The notes below the pieces were generated by a model. The model saw only the letters and a program-made list of their open reading frames with translations. It was not told the origin of the DNA and searched no databases. Positions 42,196 through 52,966 of a stretch of DNA of 64,000 nucleotides are shown piece after piece (position 1 is the first letter of the stretch; the number at the start of each line of letters is the position of its first letter). The DNA is from Haloarcula rubra (GTDB lineage: Archaea; Halobacteriota; Halobacteria; Halobacteriales; Haloarculaceae). A program made the position numbers and the translations under genes. The stretch lies in the NCBI RefSeq assembly GCF_019599465.1, contig NZ_RKLR01000006.1:62001-126000 (forward strand), written 5' to 3'.

Positions 42196-45100
42196 TCAGG
42201 CCTCCAGTCCGTTGGCGAACAGCGCCTGCGCGTCCCCGACGTTCACCGACCCGTCGTCGTTGAAGTCGAACGCGTCAGGGTTCTCCTGCACCTCTGGGTC
42301 GTCGGTGTTCGCGAACAGCGCCTGCGCGTCACCGACGTTGACGTCGCCGTCGCCGTTGACGTCCTCGTACTTGCCGTCGCCGTCCGGGTCGGTCGGTGCG
42401 TTCTCGAAGTCACCGATCGGACCGGGACCTTCGTCGACGGCCTCGACGGTCATGGCGCTGAGCTTCGCGTTGTCGTAGATAGCGTCGAACTCGACGGTGA
42501 GTTCGCCGTCGGTCACCTCGACGGTGTACGTCTTCGAGGTGGCGTTCAGCGGCCCGACCTCCGAGTAGATGTCGTAGGCCGTCAGTTTCTGGTCGCCCTC
42601 GACGGTGGCGTTGAACAACCGGTCGTTCTCGTTGGTGCCGTCGGTCGGCCCCGTGGAGTCGGGCGAGTCGTTCGGCGAGACGCCTTGATAGATTTCGGCG
42701 AACTGCAGGGTGACCTCGTAGGTACCGTTCTCGACGCCGACGGTGTAACTGAACGGGTCTCCGTACCGTTCGGTCTGGTACAGCGTGTCGTCGTCGGTGT
42801 CACCGATGGCGCTCGACACCGAGTACGTCGACCCGCTGGTGAAGTTCGTGTCCGCCTGATAGGTCGTGCCGTCCGTGGCGGTGTAGGACCCGCCGCCGGC
42901 GTTGACCGCGAACACGACCGTGCCGTCCTGGTCGGGTTCGTCGACGTACACCGCGAACGACTCGCTAGCCGTCGCGTTGCCGTCGTCGGCGGTCACCGTC
43001 AGGTCGTAGGTGCCGACCGTATCGGCTCCGGGCGCGATAGTGACCGTCCCGTTCGCGTCGTCGGCAGTCGCGAACGGTGCCCCGGTGACCGAGAGGTCGA
43101 GCGTGTCGCCGTCGGCGTCCGAGGCTGGCACGTCGATGGTCAGCGACTCGCCCTCGGAGACGCCTTTGTCCGTGATGCTGTCTATCGTCGGAGCGGTGTT
43201 CGCCTGCTCCTCGGAGAGTTGGAGCACCACGTAGTCAGACGTCGGACCGGTGTCGCCGTTCGGTTCCTCGACGTGTGCGACGAAGTAGTTCAGACCGCCC
43301 TCTTCGGTGGAGTTCGTCAGCGTGACGTCCACCGTGGCCGCACCGTTCGAGTCGGTCGTCGCCGAGTAGTACTGGACGTCGACGGCCTTGTTGGCCTCGT
43401 AGTCCTCGATCTCGTAGGGGTCGGGGACGTTCGAGAGGTTCAGTTCGCCCTCGATGCGGAGGAGCGTCACGTCCGCGTTCGCGGGCGCGTCCGCGATGGT
43501 CACCGTCTGGTTCGCGTCGGTGACCGTCGCGGCGGAGTGCCGGTCGGACATCGCAATCGGAGACAGCGAGACGTTGTCGGCGCCGATGGTCGGTTTGGTC
43601 TCGTCGGTGTCGTTCAACACCGTGGCTTCCGACCCACCGGGGCTGCCGTCGCCAACGAGGGTCGCCTCGTACATCCCGGTCGAGTCTGCACCGACCGAGA
43701 CAGTTCCGCCGGCCAGTTCGAGTCCGGAGACCGGACCCGCAGCCTGCGAGCCGAGGGTGGTGCTACTGATGCTGGTCGGGTCGTTGTCGATGGAGAACGC
43801 CATCGTCTCGCTCGGTTCGAAGCCCGAGAGCGTGACGACCAGACTGTCGTAGCCCGCGCTGTTGTTCTGGCCGTTGTGGAAGTTCGTGTACTCGACGTTC
43901 TCGACGGTGACGTCGCCGCTGTCGAGCGTGAACTCCTTGCCGACGTCGTCGCCGGCGGTGTTGAACGGGTCGAACACCATGTCCGGCAGGACCGTGTCGT
44001 TCAGGTCCACACGGAGCGTCGTGATGTTCGTGTCACCGGTGTTGGTGACCTGGTAGGATCCGGCGTTGTAGGTACTCGACTCGATGCCGCTGTTCGGCGT
44101 CAGCGCCACGCTGGCGCTGGTGTTGCCGGAGACTGCGGCCTCCTCGTACTCCAGTGCCACCGTCTGGGAGACGGCCCCGTTCGAGGTTGGGCCGTCCTGC
44201 ACAGCGGCCTGGTAGTAGTTCAGGTTCGTCGTGTCGAGCGTGACCGGCACCGTCGCCTGCCCGTTCGAGTCGAGCGTGACCGTCTGGTTGCTGACGACTT
44301 CGGCGTTGTCGGCCTCGTAGGCGTCGATGTCGTAGCCGTCCGTCGGCGGTTCGCTCGCCTCGATAGTGAGCAGGTTCACGGTCGCGCCCGCGGGCCCGCT
44401 CAGGGTGAGGTTCTGCTGCTGGTCGCTGACCGTCGCGGCCTCGTGGGCCGGGAAGTCGGTCGCGCCGAGCGTGACACCCTCGACACCGAGCGTGGGTGCG
44501 GCAGAGGCCCCGCTGTTGACGTTGGCCTGCGACCCGCCGGCGGAGCCGTCGGTGTAGAGGTCGTTCGACACCGTGGCACTACTCGAGGAGACCGTGACTG
44601 CGGAACCCGACAGTTCGAGGCCGGAGACGGCCCCAGCGCCACCGGTCGTGGAGGCGCCCTTGATGGTCGTCGGGTCGACGTCTGTCGAGAACGTCACCGT
44701 CTCGCCGGGCTCGAAGTCGGTGAACTCCAGCGTCAGCACGTCGTAGCCTTCCTCGTCGTCGACGCCGTTGTGCGGCTGGCTGAACACCGCGCCGCTGTCG
44801 GTCGTGACCACGCCGACGCCGTCACCGGACTCGCTGTCGATGACGACGCCCTTCGCGGTCGCGTCACCGGCGGTGCCGTTGGGGTCGAACACCGCGTCGG
44901 GGATGGCGCTCTCGCTCAGGTCGATTTGGACCGAGGAGAGGTTCTCCTCGCCGGTGTTCGTCACGCTGAACGACCCGCTGGAGTAGGTGCTCGCGTCGAC
45001 GCCACCGTTCTCGGTCACGGTCACGTCGGCACTGGTCGCGGAGGGCGGCACGTCGCCGACCCGCACGACCTTCACTGCGCCAATCTTCGCGTTGTCGACC

Positions 45101-48100
45101 TCGGCGACGAAGTCGACGTTCAGTTCGCCGTCGGTGACGACGACGGTGTAGGTCTTGTCCGTCGCGTTGAACTGGCCGGCCTCGGCGTAGATGTCGTAGT
45201 CGTTCAGGACCTGCTCGCCCTCGACGTAGACGTCGAAGAGGCGGGCGTCCTCCGAACTCTGGAACAGTTCGGCGAACTGCAGGGTGACCTCGTAGGTCCC
45301 GTCCGCGACGGGCGCCGAGATGTTCGGCTCGGGCGGCGCGTTGGAGCCGCCGCCGTACAGTTCGGTCTGGTACAGCGGGTCGTCGGTGGTGTTCGTGATC
45401 TCGTTGGTGACCTCGAAGGTGTTTCCGCTGGTGACGACGTCGGTCTTCGAGCTGTTGACGTACTGGACGCCGTCGGCGGTGGTGTAGTTCGAGCCGCCGG
45501 CGTTGACCGCGAGGACGACCTCCTCGGTCGGTGCGTCCTCGACGGTGACGTTGACCAGGTCCGAGTCGCTGGCCTGCCCGTCAGAGACGTTCACCTCGAA
45601 GGTCAGCGTCGTCTCGCTGTCGACTTCCGGTGCGGTGAACGACGGGGTAGCCGTGTCCTGCACGTCGAACTGGACGGCGGGACCGGCCAGCTGCGTCCAC
45701 GAGTAGCCGAGCTGGTCGCCGTCCGGGTCCGAGGAGCCGGTCGCGTCGAGAGTGACCGTCGTGTTCTCCTCGACCGTCTGGTCGTCGCCGGCGTCGGCGA
45801 TCGGAGCCGAGTTGGTGTCCTCGGCCGTCGTCGTCACGTTCAGGTCGTTCCACGTGACCGAGAACTGTTCGTCGCCCTGGTAGGACGTCGAGATGACGCC
45901 CACTGCGAGGCCGTTCCCGTCGGACGTGTTGAGCCACTCCGCGGGCATGGCGGTGCTCCCGACCATCGTCCGCGGACCGTCGTCGATGGTGTAGTAGGCG
46001 GTAACGTTGACTTGGTCGACCGAGTCCCCCGGTATCGGGTCCGTCGTCGGGTCGACCACGAGTTCCAGTCGGGTGGTCGTCCCCGGTCCAGTGAACTCGT
46101 CGGAGACGTTCGGGTTCGCGACGCCGTTGTTAGTACCGGCAGTCTCACCGAACAACTGGACGCCGTACTCACCGCTCGAGCCGCCACCGAAGCCGTTGAC
46201 CGTCAGCTTGCGGTAGTTGTCCTGGTCGCCGGTCCCGATGAAGATGCCCGCCGCCTCGTAGGCGTCTGGGTCGTCGGTGAACCCGGTCACCGTCGTGTCG
46301 ACGACGAACTCCTCTTCGGGCGGGTTGACGCCGAACTGGTAGGCGTGCTGCTGGTCGTTGTTGGTCGCGTCGCCGGTCTTGACCGCCTCGACGGTCAGGG
46401 CCGGGTTCGCGCCGCCGAAGATGGTGTCTTCGGGGATGTAGAGGTCCTGATAGTCCGTACTGCCGTCTTCGGGAATCATCAGGCCCGTGAACCCGACGCC
46501 TTCGAGGCTGTCGTTGACCGACGCGCGGACGAAGGTGCGCTCGACGGGGAGCGTCGTGGTGAGACCGTTGTCGGGGTCGACGGCGAACTCGTCGTTCACG
46601 TCGTCGATGCCGTCGTTGTCGTCGTCGGGGTCGTTGACGTTGGACGTCCCGTCGTCGTCGTAGTCCGGCGGCGTCGAACTGGCCGAACACGGGTCGCTCC
46701 CGGCGTCCAGTTCGTCCGCGTTATCGTACCCGTCACCGTCTTCGTCTATCGTCGGGTCGTCGTCGCCCGTACAGGTCGTGCCGTCACCGTCGTCAGAGGT
46801 GTTGTAGTCGTTCGGTTCGTACGCGCTGATTTCGCCGCCGAACTCCGCGACGAAGACGGTCCCCGGGAAGGGGCCGTCGTCACCCACGGCGTCCACGTCG
46901 AGCGGGGTGTTGCCCGGCGAGAACTGCGCGTTCGGCTGGGTCGAGATATCCGTGCCGTCCGAGTTCAGCTGAATCCGGTAGACGTTCCCGTCGAAGGCGG
47001 CCGTCAGCAGGTCGCCCTGCATCTTGCCGTCGAAGTTCGACGCGGTGTACTCGTCCATCCCGTTGGTCGAGGCACCGTTCTCCCAGAGCGCACCGTCGCC
47101 CTCGGCAGAGGGCTGGTAGTCACACTCGGCGGAGCCGTCGTAGCCGTCGTAGACGGCGCCCGCGGTGCTCCCTATCTGCTGTGGGTCGTTGGTGGTCTCC
47201 TCCCAGAGTCCAGCACCGTCGGGGTTCGCTCGCGTCGGGTTCGGGTGCCCGCCGTAGAATCCCTCGGTGACGTAGTGGAGGTTGTCGCCGTTGCTCTCGT
47301 CCCCGTTCTCGTTGGGTTCGTTGGTACAGACCGGGTCGCTCCCCTCGCCGACTGGGACTCCGCCCCAGCCACCGTTGGGCCCGTTGTCGACCGTGTAGAC
47401 CTGTCCGTCGACGGTTCGTTCGACGTCGTAGGGGTTCCGATACCCCGGCGAGAAGACGCTGACCCCGTCACCTTCGACGAGGATGGCCATGTTCGCGCCG
47501 TCTTGCCCACCGAACGGGGTCGACGTCCCGTTCAGCGTCGGCAGGTCGTAGAGGTACTCGGCGTCGGTGTTGGCCGCGGCCTTCTCCGAGTACTGGTTGT
47601 TGATCTGAGTGAGGTTGACCTGCAGGATGGCCGCCGAGAGCGCGTACTCGGGGGTGTACGCGAAGTTGTTCGACGGGGCACCCTGATTGGTGTGGCCACC
47701 CTGTGCCAGGAGGAGGTACTCGTTCCCGTTCTGGGTGTAGTACTGGACGCCGTTGGTGGCGTGGTTCTCCTCCGAGCGCGGTAGTCCGCGCAATATCATG
47801 TCGTGTTCCCAGCTACCGTCGCTCTGCTGGGTGAGCCGCGACACGACGCCGGAGTTGGTGTCGAGTCCGGTCTCGTCCCCACTGCCGCCACCGCCGACGC
47901 GTGGGTCGCTGGACGTGACGTATATGACCGGCTGGTCGGCCGTCCCCGTGACGGTCAGGCCAGTGACTTCACGGCTGCCGACGCCCGACTGGTAGTTTCC
48001 TTGGTCGTCGTGATTGGGGAGGTTCTTGACCGTCGTCAACTCCTCTTCGAGCGTGGCGTCGTAGCTGTCCTCACCGGTTCGGGTGACGTTGAATATCTTT

Positions 48101-49200
48101 ATCGCGCCGAACCGCTGGGATACGTAGAGTCGCCCGTCGGGGCCGAACTCTATCGAGGTCGGACTGCTCACCTGCGAGGTGACAGTGTCTTTCGCACCGA
48201 ACCCGACCGTCGCCGTGCTCTGGCCGTTCCCACTGAGACCGACTGTCAGCGGTGACGTCGTGTTAGAGGCGTTGTGCGTGGCCTCCAGCGAGGCGCTCTT
48301 GGCTCCGGTCGTGGTCGGAGCGAAGGTCACGTCGACCGTCGTCGACTCCCCGGGTGCGAGGGTCGTGCTCCCGGAGAAATCCTGACTGAACGCACTCGCG
48401 TTCGCGCCGGTGATGTCGACGCTATCAACCGAGATGGTCTGGTCGCCGGTGTCGCCCTTGTTAGTCAGGGTGACAGACTCAGTGGCCGTATCGCCGACGA
48501 CGACGTCACCGAAGTCGACAGACGAAGGCGAGGCCTCTATCACGCCGGGTTCGGGCTGGGCCTCGACGATTTCGATGGCCGAAATCTTCGCATTGTCGAC
48601 CTCCGTGGTGAAGGAGATGTCGACCGTCCCGTCGCTGGGCGTGACTTCGAACGTCTCGACCGTCGCGGTCGTCGCACCGCCCGTCTCCGCGACGATGTCG
48701 TAGTCGTTGAGGACCTGCGAGCCCTCGATGCTGACGTCGAAGACGCGGTCGCCCGTGTCGGCACTGCTCGTGCTGACACCGTGGTATATCTCGGCGAAGT
48801 ACAATCGGACCTCGTAGGACTGCCCCGAGGTCACGTCGAACGACCACGAGTGGTCGCCGTAGCGTTCCGTGAGGAACACCTCAGACGGCGCGCTCGTGGG
48901 GTTCGTGATGTCGCCACTCGAGAGTGAACTCGCCGTATACGGACTCCCGCCTGAGCTATACGTGCTCCCGCTCTCGTCGGCGGTCCAATCCGGTCCGGAA
49001 CTCGCGGTTACGCTCGGTCCGCCCGCGTTCACGCGGTAAACGACGTCGCTGTCTGTCGTCTGCAAGAGTTCCTGTCCGGAGCCTGTTGCGCCTGGTGCGG
49101 TCACGAACGCGCCAGCTGTCCCACCGGCAACGATCGATAGTATCGTCAGTACCGATAACGTGACCGCGAGTGTTCGTTGTCTGAATTGCCTATCTGGCAT
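42196..49200 (-). CDS. 2334-residue exported malectin / sugar-dehydrogenase-like protein with dockerin
   Basis: Exported, signal ~8-31. Domains, roughly: malectin 1 (50-215), choice-of-anchor-D/HYDIN-like (220-330), beta-propeller like glucose/sorbosone dehydrogenases (333-800; VSSPTSIEFGPDGRLYVSQR, YRNPYDVERTVDGQVYTVDN), thrombospondin-3-like calcium repeats (807-877), LamG-like (877-1120), PKD-like (1137-1220), malectin 2 (1228-1380), two related beta-rich repeats (1383-2000), cadherin-like (2000-2090), malectin 3 (2095-2255), dockerin (2267-2334; DVNGDGDVNVGDAQALF, DFNDDGSVNVGDAQALF). Its dockerin type matches that of the 699-residue scaffold. Probably the sugar-binding or sugar-oxidising load of the cohesin system. 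The promoter lies in the AT-rich gap at 49201-49300. Confidence 0.85.
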   Translation of the reverse strand: MPDRQFRQRTLAVTLSVLTILSIVAGGTAGAFVTAPGATGSGQELLQTTDSDVVYRVNAGGPSVTASSGPDWTADESGSTYSSGGSPYTASSLSSGDITNPTSAPSEVFLTERYGDHSWSFDVTSGQSYEVRLYFAEIYHGVSTSSADTGDRVFDVSIEGSQVLNDYDIVAETGGATTATVETFEVTPSDGTVDISFTTEVDNAKISAIEIVEAQPEPGVIEASPSSVDFGDVVVGDTATESVTLTNKGDTGDQTISVDSVDITGANASAFSQDFSGSTTLAPGESTTVDVTFAPTTTGAKSASLEATHNASNTTSPLTVGLSGNGQSTATVGFGAKDTVTSQVSSPTSIEFGPDGRLYVSQRFGAIKIFNVTRTGEDSYDATLEEELTTVKNLPNHDDQGNYQSGVGSREVTGLTVTGTADQPVIYVTSSDPRVGGGGSGDETGLDTNSGVVSRLTQQSDGSWEHDMILRGLPRSEENHATNGVQYYTQNGNEYLLLAQGGHTNQGAPSNNFAYTPEYALSAAILQVNLTQINNQYSEKAAANTDAEYLYDLPTLNGTSTPFGGQDGANMAILVEGDGVSVFSPGYRNPYDVERTVDGQVYTVDNGPNGGWGGVPVGEGSDPVCTNEPNENGDESNGDNLHYVTEGFYGGHPNPTRANPDGAGLWEETTNDPQQIGSTAGAVYDGYDGSAECDYQPSAEGDGALWENGASTNGMDEYTASNFDGKMQGDLLTAAFDGNVYRIQLNSDGTDISTQPNAQFSPGNTPLDVDAVGDDGPFPGTVFVAEFGGEISAYEPNDYNTSDDGDGTTCTGDDDPTIDEDGDGYDNADELDAGSDPCSASSTPPDYDDDGTSNVNDPDDDNDGIDDVNDEFAVDPDNGLTTTLPVERTFVRASVNDSLEGVGFTGLMIPEDGSTDYQDLYIPEDTIFGGANPALTVEAVKTGDATNNDQQHAYQFGVNPPEEEFVVDTTVTGFTDDPDAYEAAGIFIGTGDQDNYRKLTVNGFGGGSSGEYGVQLFGETAGTNNGVANPNVSDEFTGPGTTTRLELVVDPTTDPIPGDSVDQVNVTAYYTIDDGPRTMVGSTAMPAEWLNTSDGNGLAVGVISTSYQGDEQFSVTWNDLNVTTTAEDTNSAPIADAGDDQTVEENTTVTLDATGSSDPDGDQLGYSWTQLAGPAVQFDVQDTATPSFTAPEVDSETTLTFEVNVSDGQASDSDLVNVTVEDAPTEEVVLAVNAGGSNYTTADGVQYVNSSKTDVVTSGNTFEVTNEITNTTDDPLYQTELYGGGSNAPPEPNISAPVADGTYEVTLQFAELFQSSEDARLFDVYVEGEQVLNDYDIYAEAGQFNATDKTYTVVVTDGELNVDFVAEVDNAKIGAVKVVRVGDVPPSATSADVTVTENGGVDASTYSSGSFSVTNTGEENLSSVQIDLSESAIPDAVFDPNGTAGDATAKGVVIDSESGDGVGVVTTDSGAVFSQPHNGVDDEEGYDVLTLEFTDFEPGETVTFSTDVDPTTIKGASTTGGAGAVSGLELSGSAVTVSSSSATVSNDLYTDGSAGGSQANVNSGASAAPTLGVEGVTLGATDFPAHEAATVSDQQQNLTLSGPAGATVNLLTIEASEPPTDGYDIDAYEADNAEVVSNQTVTLDSNGQATVPVTLDTTNLNYYQAAVQDGPTSNGAVSQTVALEYEEAAVSGNTSASVALTPNSGIESSTYNAGSYQVTNTGDTNITTLRVDLNDTVLPDMVFDPFNTAGDDVGKEFTLDSGDVTVENVEYTNFHNGQNNSAGYDSLVVTLSGFEPSETMAFSIDNDPTSISSTTLGSQAAGPVSGLELAGGTVSVGADSTGMYEATLVGDGSPGGSEATVLNDTDETKPTIGADNVSLSPIAMSDRHSAATVTDANQTVTIADAPANADVTLLRIEGELNLSNVPDPYEIEDYEANKAVDVQYYSATTDSNGAATVDVTLTNSTEEGGLNYFVAHVEEPNGDTGPTSDYVVLQLSEEQANTAPTIDSITDKGVSEGESLTIDVPASDADGDTLDLSVTGAPFATADDANGTVTIAPGADTVGTYDLTVTADDGNATASESFAVYVDEPDQDGTVVFAVNAGGGSYTATDGTTYQADTNFTSGSTYSVSSAIGDTDDDTLYQTERYGDPFSYTVGVENGTYEVTLQFAEIYQGVSPNDSPDSTGPTDGTNENDRLFNATVEGDQKLTAYDIYSEVGPLNATSKTYTVEVTDGELTVEFDAIYDNAKLSAMTVEAVDEGPGPIGDFENAPTDPDGDGKYEDVNGDGDVNVGDAQALFANTDDPEVQENPDAFDFNDDGSVNVGDAQALFANGLEA

Positions 49201-50415: not shown

Positions 50416-50707
50416 ACACTTCGATACAGGTGTCTCCCCCACCCCATATTCAGGTACGGTGGATACACTTCGATAGAGGGGTGTGTATAACCGACGGCCC
50501 GGACTGGACCCTTTCGTAGACGGCGATTCGTAACACTGTTTCATCTGGAAATGTAGAACAGCAGACAACCGTATTTTGGCCGTTAAAGCGGTTCAGGCCG
50601 CTCGATACACTTCGATAGAGGTGTGTCCACGATACGGGACGTGTCGCGAGGCATCGACGGTGAAGTGTGAGACAATTCGGCAGGAACACTTCGATAGAGG
50701 CGTGTCT
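50416..50707 (+). repeat. Four origin-type repeats on the 3' side of orc1/cdc6
   Basis: Direct copies of ACACTTCGATAGAGG followed by GTGTGT-like bases at about 50416-50435 (TACAGG variant), 50465-50486, 50607-50626 and 50686-50707, all in plus orientation. The same motif occurs on the other side of orc1/cdc6. These are the likely binding sites (ORBs) of the initiator encoded between them. Confidence 0.75.
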
Positions 50708-50745
50708 GTCGGGCCACAGCGTTACAGAGAACCGACGAGATAGAC

Positions 50746-50761
50746 CACGACTGCAGTCGTG
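50746..50761. repeat. 16-bp palindrome CACGACTGCAGTCGTG
   Basis: A perfect palindrome 8 bases downstream of the orc1/cdc6 stop. Its half CACGACTGCAGT also forms the core of the 22-bp inverted repeats at 15964 and 16774. Meaning unknown. Confidence 0.6.
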
Positions 50762-50768
50762 AGAGAAG

Positions 50769-52241
50769 TCATCCCTCGTTGCGTATCTGTGCCTGTACGA
50801 CGGATGCGACCTCGTCCTGCGACACCATCTCGATACGGGAGTCCTCGCGAAGCGTCTCCAGAATCGTCGCCGGTGACTCACCGAACTGGAACTCGAGGAA
50901 CATCCCGGAACTCGGACCGTGACTCCGACGTTCGAAGTCGACGAGCGAGTACGTCGTCAACTCTTTCATCTTGTTGACGTACGTCTCCTGGTGGTACTGG
51001 TCGGCGTCTATCGAGTCCGTCAGGAACTGGTACACCTTGTAGCCGGTCGTACTGCGTGCTGCACCGCTGTTTGACTCCGCGGCGACAGCAGCCGTCGCGT
51101 AGAGACAGAGTTTCTTCTGGGTGCTGATTCCCCGGACGACTTCGAGGACCCGGTTCTTCTCGACTTTGTCCTGTGCTTCGCGGACGTGTGCTTCGTTGAC
51201 CCGTGGGTCGCCCTCCCGCTCGGCCAGTTCGCCGGCGACACGCATCAGGTCGATAGCCTTCCGCGCGTCACCGTGGGTCTGTGCCGCGAAGGCGGCCGCC
51301 AGCGGGATGACGTCGTCGTCGAGGACGTCGTCGTAGAAGGCGTCCTGTCGACGACGGAGAATCGCCTGTAACTGGTTCGCGTCGTAGTCGCCGAAGTGGA
51401 CGTCCTCGGGCGTGAAAGAACTGAGCGCCCGGCTACCGACCGACTCCATCATCTTCGTGTCGTTGGATATCGCGACGACGGAGATGAACGTCTCCAGTTC
51501 GCCGTCTGCGCCCGCGCGCGAGAGTTGATAGAGGAGCCGAGAGAACGCGGGGTCCTGCTTGTCCCGCCGTCCCACGAGCATGTCGAGTTCGTCGAGGACG
51601 AACACGAGTGAGTCGAAGTTCTCGTCGACGATGCGGAACAGTTCGTCCCACTTCTCTTTGGTCGCGACGCCGTGCTTGGGGACCTGTACCTCGACGCCGG
51701 CCTCGTCTGCGGCACGGGAGACGAGTTCGTAGACGGCGACGCCGAGCGTGTCCAGATCCTGGCAGTTGACCTCTATCGTCCCGAATCGGATATCTCGCGG
51801 TTCACAGATTTGACTGATGTTCTTACAGACAGCCTTCGTGATGAGGGATTTGCCCGTCCCGGACGGTCCATAGAGAAAGAGATTCGGCGGGCGGTTGTCG
51901 CCGAGCGCGACCCGGAGCATCTTGGTGACTTCCTGTAACTGGTCGTCACGTCCGACGATACGGTCCTCCTCGACGACGTAGTTCGGGTCGAGCAAGGTCC
52001 GTTCTCGAATCAACCCCTCCTGTTCGTCGAACTCGAGGAGCATCTCTTCGATAGATTGGGAGCCGGACTCACTGTCGAGCGTCGTGTCCGCTTCCGAGGC
52101 GTCCGACTCGGTGTCGAGCGTCGACTGGGTTCCCTCGTTCACAGTAGAGAGGTCTCCAGAAGACCGGTCCTCCGTCGACGATTCGTCGTCGTCCGATGAC
52201 CCCGACCGGTCAGCGGGGTGTTCGGAGTCGTCGGTGTCCAT
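50769..52241 (-). CDS. orc1/cdc6: Orc1/Cdc6 replication initiator
   Basis: A 490-residue protein from ATG 52241. Walker A GPSGTGKS (~125-132), Walker B VFVLDELD (~213-220), sensor-1 region VVAISNDTKM, sensor-2/lid around AQTHGDARKAIDLMR and a C-terminal winged helix (KLCLYATAAVAAE...). The first ~65 residues are an acidic Ser/Asp extension. A GTG five codons upstream (52256) is possible, but a TTTTTAC element ~28 bases before the ATG favours the shorter, leaderless form. Nine motif repeats flank the gene and one lies next to its promoter, so it probably marks its own origin and regulates itself. Confidence 0.93.
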   Translation of the reverse strand: MDTDDSEHPADRSGSSDDDESSTEDRSSGDLSTVNEGTQSTLDTESDASEADTTLDSESGSQSIEEMLLEFDEQEGLIRERTLLDPNYVVEEDRIVGRDDQLQEVTKMLRVALGDNRPPNLFLYGPSGTGKSLITKAVCKNISQICEPRDIRFGTIEVNCQDLDTLGVAVYELVSRAADEAGVEVQVPKHGVATKEKWDELFRIVDENFDSLVFVLDELDMLVGRRDKQDPAFSRLLYQLSRAGADGELETFISVVAISNDTKMMESVGSRALSSFTPEDVHFGDYDANQLQAILRRRQDAFYDDVLDDDVIPLAAAFAAQTHGDARKAIDLMRVAGELAEREGDPRVNEAHVREAQDKVEKNRVLEVVRGISTQKKLCLYATAAVAAESNSGAARSTTGYKVYQFLTDSIDADQYHQETYVNKMKELTTYSLVDFERRSHGPSSGMFLEFQFGESPATILETLREDSRIEMVSQDEVASVVQAQIRNEG

Positions 52242-52276
52242 ACGTTGACCAGACACGGACGTAGTAAAAATCTTGG

Positions 52277-52966
52277 CACCTCTATCGATGTGTGTTCATC
52301 CCGTCGAGGTTGTCTATCCCGATGATTCGTCCGGGTATCGGGAACGTGTCCGTGAGGCGAAAGAAGGTCTGACGAAGTGTTTGGAGAGCTGTCGACGGGG
52401 CAGCCGGGGTATAGACACACACCCCTCTATCGATGTGTTTCGGGAGAAGAGTGGGAGGGGGGTAATTTCGGCAGTCGAGGCGATAGATCGAGGACTGTCC
52501 GAGAGCGTCGACTACTCTCTGGCTGATTCTCGGGTTCTCTTACCTCACATCCACTCTAGTAGCGGTTCTCGTTTCGTTTCTCTCTTCTTTCTTCTAGTCT
52601 AGCTAGTACCTAGACACACACACCCCTCTATCGAAGTGTTCGATGTGTTCGTAACGCTACGGAGTCTCTTCCTCTAGCCTCTTCGGTAGAATACTTCGCC
52701 TCGACCGTCGGATACTCCCGAATTAATACTGTTCGTGGACTCTTTCGGCAAATTACGCGGTCTCATACTCACGAACTATGGCTGTCACCAGCGCTCCCCC
52801 GACGACACCTATTGCTCGAACACATCGATAGAGGGGTGTCTGTGTCATCGAGTCCTATTCCTGTATTTTCTCTATCTTCGGTCGTTCACATCTTCCTCGC
52901 ACAGTGACTCCTGGTCGAGGGCCATCCAGTTCGTCCGTAATCACACATCGATAGAGGTGTGTGTGA
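52277..52966. other. Putative replication origin with five initiator repeats
   Basis: Repeats at 52277-52295, 52415-52438 and 52614-52639 are in minus orientation (CCTCTATCGA), those at 52820-52845 and 52944-52966 in plus orientation (TCGATAGAGG). The inverted pair at 52614 and 52820 encloses ~180 bases that include GAATTAATACTG, a candidate unwinding element. A pyrimidine-rich, CTAG-rich stretch precedes it (52541-52613). No gene is seen in 52257-53633 apart from possible remnants. Confidence 0.75.

Follow-up and report, generated by a model that had tools for sequence, protein, structure and literature searches.

The window (the whole 64-kb stretch of DNA analyzed in this study) contains an orc1/cdc6 initiator gene whose product matches Orc1/Cdc6 domain profiles (TIGR02928, 424 bits; AAA, Cdc6 lid, and winged helix) as well as the solved archaeal Cdc6 chains 2qby and 2v1u. 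Nine ORB sites of the form ACAC(A/T)TCGATAGAGG surround the gene, as the original prediction had stated; eight of them are exact, and the site at 50416 has one mismatch. The features of the locus are listed below; all ORB sites were located by motif scan and comparison with relatives.

50416..50430, + strand: ORB of the downstream array, one mismatch; relatives also have downstream sites
50465..50479, + strand: ORB of the downstream array
50607..50621, + strand: ORB of the downstream array
50686..50700, + strand: ORB of the downstream array
50769..52256, - strand: gene for the Orc1/Cdc6 initiator, 495 aa when read from GTG; the ATG at 52241 is the likely start
52265..52271, - strand: TATA-like element ATTTTTA, from sequence, approximately 27 nt upstream of the ATG at 52241
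52279..52293, - strand: promoter-proximal ORB, adjoining the TATA-like element
52424..52438, - strand: middle upstream ORB
52570..52624, - strand: ORB-linked element with a TG run, CTAGs, and a purine (AGAAGAAAGAAG) tract; candidate unwinding element
52594, 52599, 52603, and 52610: CTAGs inside the ORB-linked element
52625..52639, - strand: element-bearing ORB, inner member of the inverted pair
52640..52819, no strand: 180-bp spacer of the inverted ORB pair, from comparison with relatives
52820..52834, + strand: outer ORB, partner in the inverted pair
52943..52957, + strand: outermost ORB

A scan of the window allowing up to three mismatches gives 11 matches, nine of which are at the orc1/cdc6 locus; none of 100 shuffled controls reached 11 matches (mean, 2.45), and three other places in the 4.67-Mb genome match the motif with at most one mismatch. 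In the orientation of the gene, the upstream sites read - - + + + at -701, -578, -383, -182, and -37, and the four downstream sites are all -. The five promoter-side copies had been described as inverted; three are inverted relative to the 3'-side sites, and the two outermost are not. The correction is important: the change of polarity from 52625(-) to 52820(+) forms the inverted ORB pair that an archaeal origin is expected to hold. The two features by which the origin was recognized are an adjacent orc1/cdc6 gene with AAA+ and winged-helix domains and a flanking intergenic region with at least two ORB repeats, some of them inverted. The longest G run after the ORB core is GAGGGG, followed by GTGTGT, and the trailing part varies; the motif therefore lacks a long G-run, as first noted. 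A G-string at the ORB end is absent from the window, and the family consensus contains no long G run. The ORB tail is GAGGGGTGTGTG, in contrast to the long G-string of the origins in PMC3528665, where the G-string is used as the usual haloarchaeal ORB trait and origins without classical ORBs are allowed for.

The locus is on contig C34 (251,582 bp) of a genome of 37 contigs whose closest named relatives are Haloarcula; the genome has 15 matches to the window initiator, one of which, the single Orc1/Cdc6 of C34, is at the locus. C34 is likely a plasmid, because no tRNA gene was found on it in a scan of 13 pieces and because its origin neighborhood is partly collinear with the 535-kb plasmid of Haloarcula sp. 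JP-L23. Comparison of the contig ends revealed no overlap. The origin is accessory, since only 10 of 32 Haloarcula genomes, the window genome included, carry an initiator member of at least 80% identity; beyond these, genome G027 has a copy in two pieces with a stop.

The genome scan returned 68 loci, and one partial match (L083) was dropped from all counts. Together with the window and JP-L23, the set consists of 69 rows (52 near and 17 sister loci), including at least two near-duplicate pairs (L036/L181 and L100/L179), as judged from near-identical gaps. With at most one mismatch, the near pattern gives 404 matches, compared with none for the reversed pattern and none for 20 letter-shuffled patterns, and six ORB matches were found in 286,845 bp of far-flank control sequence. 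The inverted -|+ upstream pair is present in 51 of the 52 near loci, and the commonest near upstream string is --+++ (26/52). In the sister loci, the upstream order is mostly the same, and the ORB takes the form AACAAATCGATAGGGG on both sides of the gene; the ORB repeats change together with the initiator between the two families. The near (50 rows) and sister (16 rows) initiators each form one clade in a second tree (support of 0.974 for the sister clade and none printed for the near clade), which was built without L061, L080, L082, and six distant paralogs of the window genome; the first tree contained frame-broken rows and long branches. Within the taxonomic family, 35 of the 146 genomes contain exact ORB sites, and the family motif recurs around orthologs in many genera, many of them on plasmids. 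On this comparison, the window origin is a member of a widespread haloarchaeal origin family. The predicted initiator-specific origin other than oriC1 is thereby well supported, whereas the notion of an isolated oddity is not, since the family is widespread.

The length of the inverted-pair spacer is fairly constant in the relatives (median of 179 bp), and its sequence is not conserved by eye. The distinct -|+ and +/+ gap lengths cluster at steps of approximately 11 bp (p = 0.001 to 0.009), although a sharp peak alone raises the statistic used. The combined probability is still below 1 in 3,000 with 31 clusters at 92% identity, but with eight clusters at 88% identity it rises to 0.11 and the signal is lost; helical phasing of the ORB gaps is thus suggestive only. 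No such phasing was found in the - - gaps (p = 0.44) or the downstream gaps (p = 0.11).

One upstream ORB differs from the others. The positional counts are based on the 53 rows (of 69) in which the four sites closest to the gene have the order -+++. In these rows, a TG run and an AGAAGA tract come after the first + ORB (52625 in the window). AGAAGA is present there in 46/53 loci and at 5/401 other ORBs (0/42, 2/53, 1/53, 0/53, and, for the downstream sites, 2/200), while 88 of 3,450 random 80-mers contain it. Runs of at least three [TA]AG units accompany 29/53 first + ORBs versus 1/401 other ORBs, and at least two CTAGs accompany 35/53 versus 3/401; the window tract reads TAG-AAG-AAA, i.e., two [TA]AG units followed by AAA. 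A content-based rule, which uses purine and CTAG scores, called the element in 65 of 68 rows. In nine of these 65 loci the element-bearing ORB is inverted, and the element is again on its G/T-rich side. The sister family has the composite at one + ORB, with at least two CTAGs in 16/17 loci. The purine score of the window 40-mer (17) exceeds that of all 293 background chunks (maximum, 15), and the densest 200-bp CTAG window of C34 (251 kb), with six CTAGs, contains the element; the densest CTAG window also overlaps the element on pL131, CBA1115 plasmid 4, and TuA4 and does not on the other five plasmids. The most AT-rich upstream 40-mer is in the spacer after the first + ORB in 31/42 loci, compared with 13.4 expected.

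The ORB-linked element may be the site of DNA opening. Another candidate was a DNA unwinding element (DUE) inside the inverted pair; it was rejected as the best candidate, as that spacer is only mildly enriched in AT, its mean AT content (0.509) is not higher than that of the two + spacers (0.517 and 0.504; 0.470 for the - - spacer) and its sequence is apparently unconserved. It seems somewhat unlikely that the element instead binds a different protein or serves as a transcription signal for a gene or RNA that has escaped notice. CTAGs are abundant in it, and part of it is a palindrome (TTCTAGAA in many relatives) of a kind that a dimeric protein might bind; CTAG has also been linked to DNA kinks under a repressor (PMC6471742). 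Against this, the element keeps the same side of its ORB where the ORB is inverted, which points to joint action with the initiator, and hosts lacking the methylase described below have lost the CTAGs but retained the purine tract. The element is treated here as specific to the near and sister families. Its generality among haloarchaea was considered and dropped: no comparable ORB-CTAG-purine composite was seen by eye in 31 other orc-flanking stretches (two best tracts each). A weaker tract containing a single CTAG is found downstream of the genes of L002 and L184. No report of the element was found in the literature passages covered.

The window genome has one N6/N4 methylase match, an ORF of 342 aa. 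It carries the SPPY motif that is also reported for the CTAG methylase HVO_0794 (PMC5867850), and on the basis of this common motif we infer that it is the HVO_0794 ortholog. Relatives of at least 55% identity were found in 32 of the 48 near-locus genomes searched. By the content rule, near elements have at least two CTAGs in 29/30 hosts with the methylase and 0/16 without it, although the element calling itself partly used CTAG counts; by position alone, the values are 22/31 and 0/16. The content-rule counts leave out L031 and L057, whose genomes lay outside the set searched, L038, which lacks an upstream pair, and L043, in which no element was called; L043 is kept in the positional counts. 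The near CTAG losses fall in about two clades, as judged by eye on the first tree, and Fisher's p of 1.7e-11 therefore overstates the evidence. In the sister family, at least two CTAGs are present in 12/12 elements with the methylase and in 4/5 without it, which weakens the case for a general coupling of CTAGs to the methylase. A correlation of the CTAG methylase with CTAG clusters upstream of orc1/cdc6 genes has been described (PMC4752239), and in H. volcanii the CTAG density is high at only one origin (PMC5867850). The clusters of PMC4752239 and the window are alike in their CTAG enrichment near orc1/cdc6 and in the correlation with an orphan CTAG methylase; the present data go beyond that work in placing the CTAGs inside one element joined to one ORB and in the mixed outcome for the near and sister families.

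At the gene-nearest + ORB, a TATA-like [AC]TTTT sequence (ATTTT in the window) follows within 20 nt in 44/48 loci, compared with 0/90, 1/109, and 2/187 for the other ORB classes. An in-frame ATG is 52 to 55 nt from the start of the proximal ORB in 44/48 loci; in 22 loci, the first in-frame ATG is already at 41 to 43 nt. The TATA-like element and the ATG spacing fit a leaderless promoter, which is probable for the window gene, and this geometry also points to the ATG at 52241 as its likely start. Initiator bound at the proximal ORB would occupy the upstream flank of the TATA element and presumably result in self-repression.

Downstream of the gene, at least one ORB is present within 2 kb in 51 of the 52 near loci, an arrangement expected of oriC2-type titration control. 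Within 700 bp, 166 of 172 near sites are on the - strand and all 38 sister sites are on the + strand, i.e., the opposite polarity; when the sister search is widened to 2 kb, two - sites appear. The downstream sites thus co-vary with the upstream sites in sequence but not in orientation, as would be expected if binding is all that their role requires. An ORF that looks inserted separates the gene from all downstream ORBs in L042 and L035 and from five of seven in L044; judged from sequence, the inserted ORFs are transposase-like (TnpB type) in L042 and L044 and oxidoreductase-like in L035. By analogy, the array more likely regulates the origin than fires with it. It is improbable that the array acts as a second start region within the firing origin: although the downstream ORBs share the core and a similar information content with the upstream sites, they are mostly of a single polarity, this polarity is opposite in the sister family, the scarcity of AGAAGA beside them sets them apart, their spacing is not periodic, and the oriC2D region of Haloarcula hispanica alone had no ARS activity (PMC3936714).

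The regulatory reading is drawn from oriC2 of H. hispanica, in which deletion, ARS, and copy-number data indicate that the ORB cluster downstream of cdc6E restrains the origin, probably by titration, a mechanism for which the authors suggest wide use (PMC3936714, PMC4010727). Like the window, oriC2-cdc6E/oriC2D combines an upstream origin with an ORB cluster that directly follows its own cdc6 gene, and this likeness makes titration control plausible for the window array, to which the reading is transferred by analogy; oriC2D has 11 ORBs in 722 bp downstream, compared with four in the window (PMC3936714). On the other hand, oriC2-cdc6E is described as conserved in Haloarcula species (PMC4441112), whereas the window family is accessory (10/32 genomes), which argues against the window initiator being the Cdc6E ortholog.

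The haloarchaeal plasmid origins of PMC3528665 resemble the window in their Orc1/Cdc6-specific ORBs, inverted pair, and plasmid location, and in having ORBs flank the gene on one side or on both (on both for several genes). For pL131, on which a member of the window initiator family is found, Table 1 of that paper gives one predicted origin; the ORB-linked CTAG/purine element is not mentioned for these origins in the text covered. The bacterial basal unwinding system consists of DnaA-boxes and DnaA-trios, with the trio consensus 3'-GAT-5' (PMC8287927), and shares with the window family the fixed order of initiator box, spacer, and repeated [TA]AG; the family, however, has an archaeal ORB and Orc1 where the bacterial module has DnaA. 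In the elements with such runs, the distance from the ORB end to the [TA]AG trios is 24 to 31 nt in 32 of 38 cases (full range, 24 to 42 nt), compared with a bacterial peak of 10 to 13 bp, up to 16 bp (PMC8287927), and none of these elements has the bacterial-type spacing. The ORB-linked element is therefore at most an analogue of the DnaA-trio module and not a member. We regard as unlikely the joint reading that likens the element to this box-plus-trio module, in which Orc1/Cdc6 on a single polar ORB would engage single-stranded TAG-AAG-AAG at a set distance and so open the origin, m4C on the CTAGs would gate re-firing in the manner of Dam at E. coli oriC, and loss of the methylase would lead to CTAG decay while the tract stays.

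Taking the locus as a whole, the C34 site is probably a plasmid-type origin that has its own Orc1/Cdc6 and would open at the ORB-linked element, repress its own initiator gene, and be damped by the downstream array. This reading builds on the site positions, their conservation and polarity, the co-variation of sites and initiator, the promoter overlap, and the conservation of the ORB-linked element, all of which are established here; firing is predicted from the sequence. The initiator would bind the five upstream ORBs, and the inverted pair 52625(-)/52820(+) would build the initiation complex with the in-line ORBs. The duplex would open, and the MCM helicase would load, at the element at 52570-52624 beside the 52625 ORB. 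As the ORB at 52279 overlaps the promoter, the initiator would repress its own gene, and the four downstream ORBs would soak up initiator and damp firing as in H. hispanica oriC2D.

Structure alone is no proof of activity, because two well-formed H. hispanica origins had no ARS activity (Wu et al., PMC3528665), and no experimentally proven member of the family was found; H. hispanica Cdc6K is only 30% identical to the window initiator. It is nevertheless doubtful that the origin is dormant or a relic, with sites that bind the initiator on a replicon normally copied from elsewhere. Such inactive Orc1/Cdc6 origins are documented in haloarchaea (PMC3528665), and C34 lacks overlapping ends, so that further origins are possible on the full replicon. 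The GC skew of C34 and eight complete plasmids favors neither reading: the distance between the gene and the nearest extremum ranges from 1 to 25% of the replicon length, being small for some replicons and large for others, and the sign is inconsistent. Yet the gene and sites are conserved across genera, and on 4 of 10 complete plasmids (pL131, CBA1115 plasmid 4, pHSR-Bgl01, and TuA4 megaplasmid 2) the family member is the single match in a search for initiators of the Orc1/Cdc6 type. The JP-L23 and Halobaculum plasmids have, besides the family member, only a short or very weak Orc1/Cdc6 match, and other full-length or near-full-length Orc1/Cdc6 genes coexist on the remaining four (pHLAC01, Salinigranum, Haloplanus, and Halomarina).

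The kind of origin is known, since two-sided arrays and the downstream ORB brake of H. hispanica oriC2 have been described. New are the gene-proximal ORB adjoining a TATA-like element in most of the loci compared, the single ORB with a conserved TG run/CTAG/AGAAGA element on its G/T-rich side, and the tracking of the host methylase by the CTAGs in the near but not the sister family. To our knowledge, the mechanism by which archaeal Orc1/Cdc6 opens DNA is poorly understood, and a polar element that is tied to one ORB, and remains so when that ORB is inverted, marks precisely where melting should be sought. With the CTAG pattern, it can be tested concretely whether replication is controlled by the CTAG methylase that is widespread in haloarchaea, a question raised in PMC4752239 and left open in PMC5867850. 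Haloarchaeal plasmid copy number may be under a double brake, in which the promoter ORB would provide self-repression and the downstream array titration.

Several minor observations concern the surroundings of the locus and the rest of the genome. Beside the origin, window positions 42196-49200 (-) encode a probably secreted protein of 2334 aa with repeated domains, and the JP-L23 plasmid has a long ORF of similar size in the same place. An isolated exact ORB in the window genome (G000:C32:190582-190596, i.e., L144:4583-4597) overlaps the start of a 147-aa ORF; single exact ORBs are found elsewhere on pL131 (33518) and pHLAC01 (94869), and a pair is found on TuA4 (138709 and 138829). These sites could be chance matches, relics, or distant initiator-binding sites. 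The orc1/cdc6 paralogs L002, L005, L009, and L010 of the same genome (G000) are likewise flanked on both sides by repeats of their own, and the L009 motif contains TAACAGCGGAA, the start of an ORB printed in PMC3528665.
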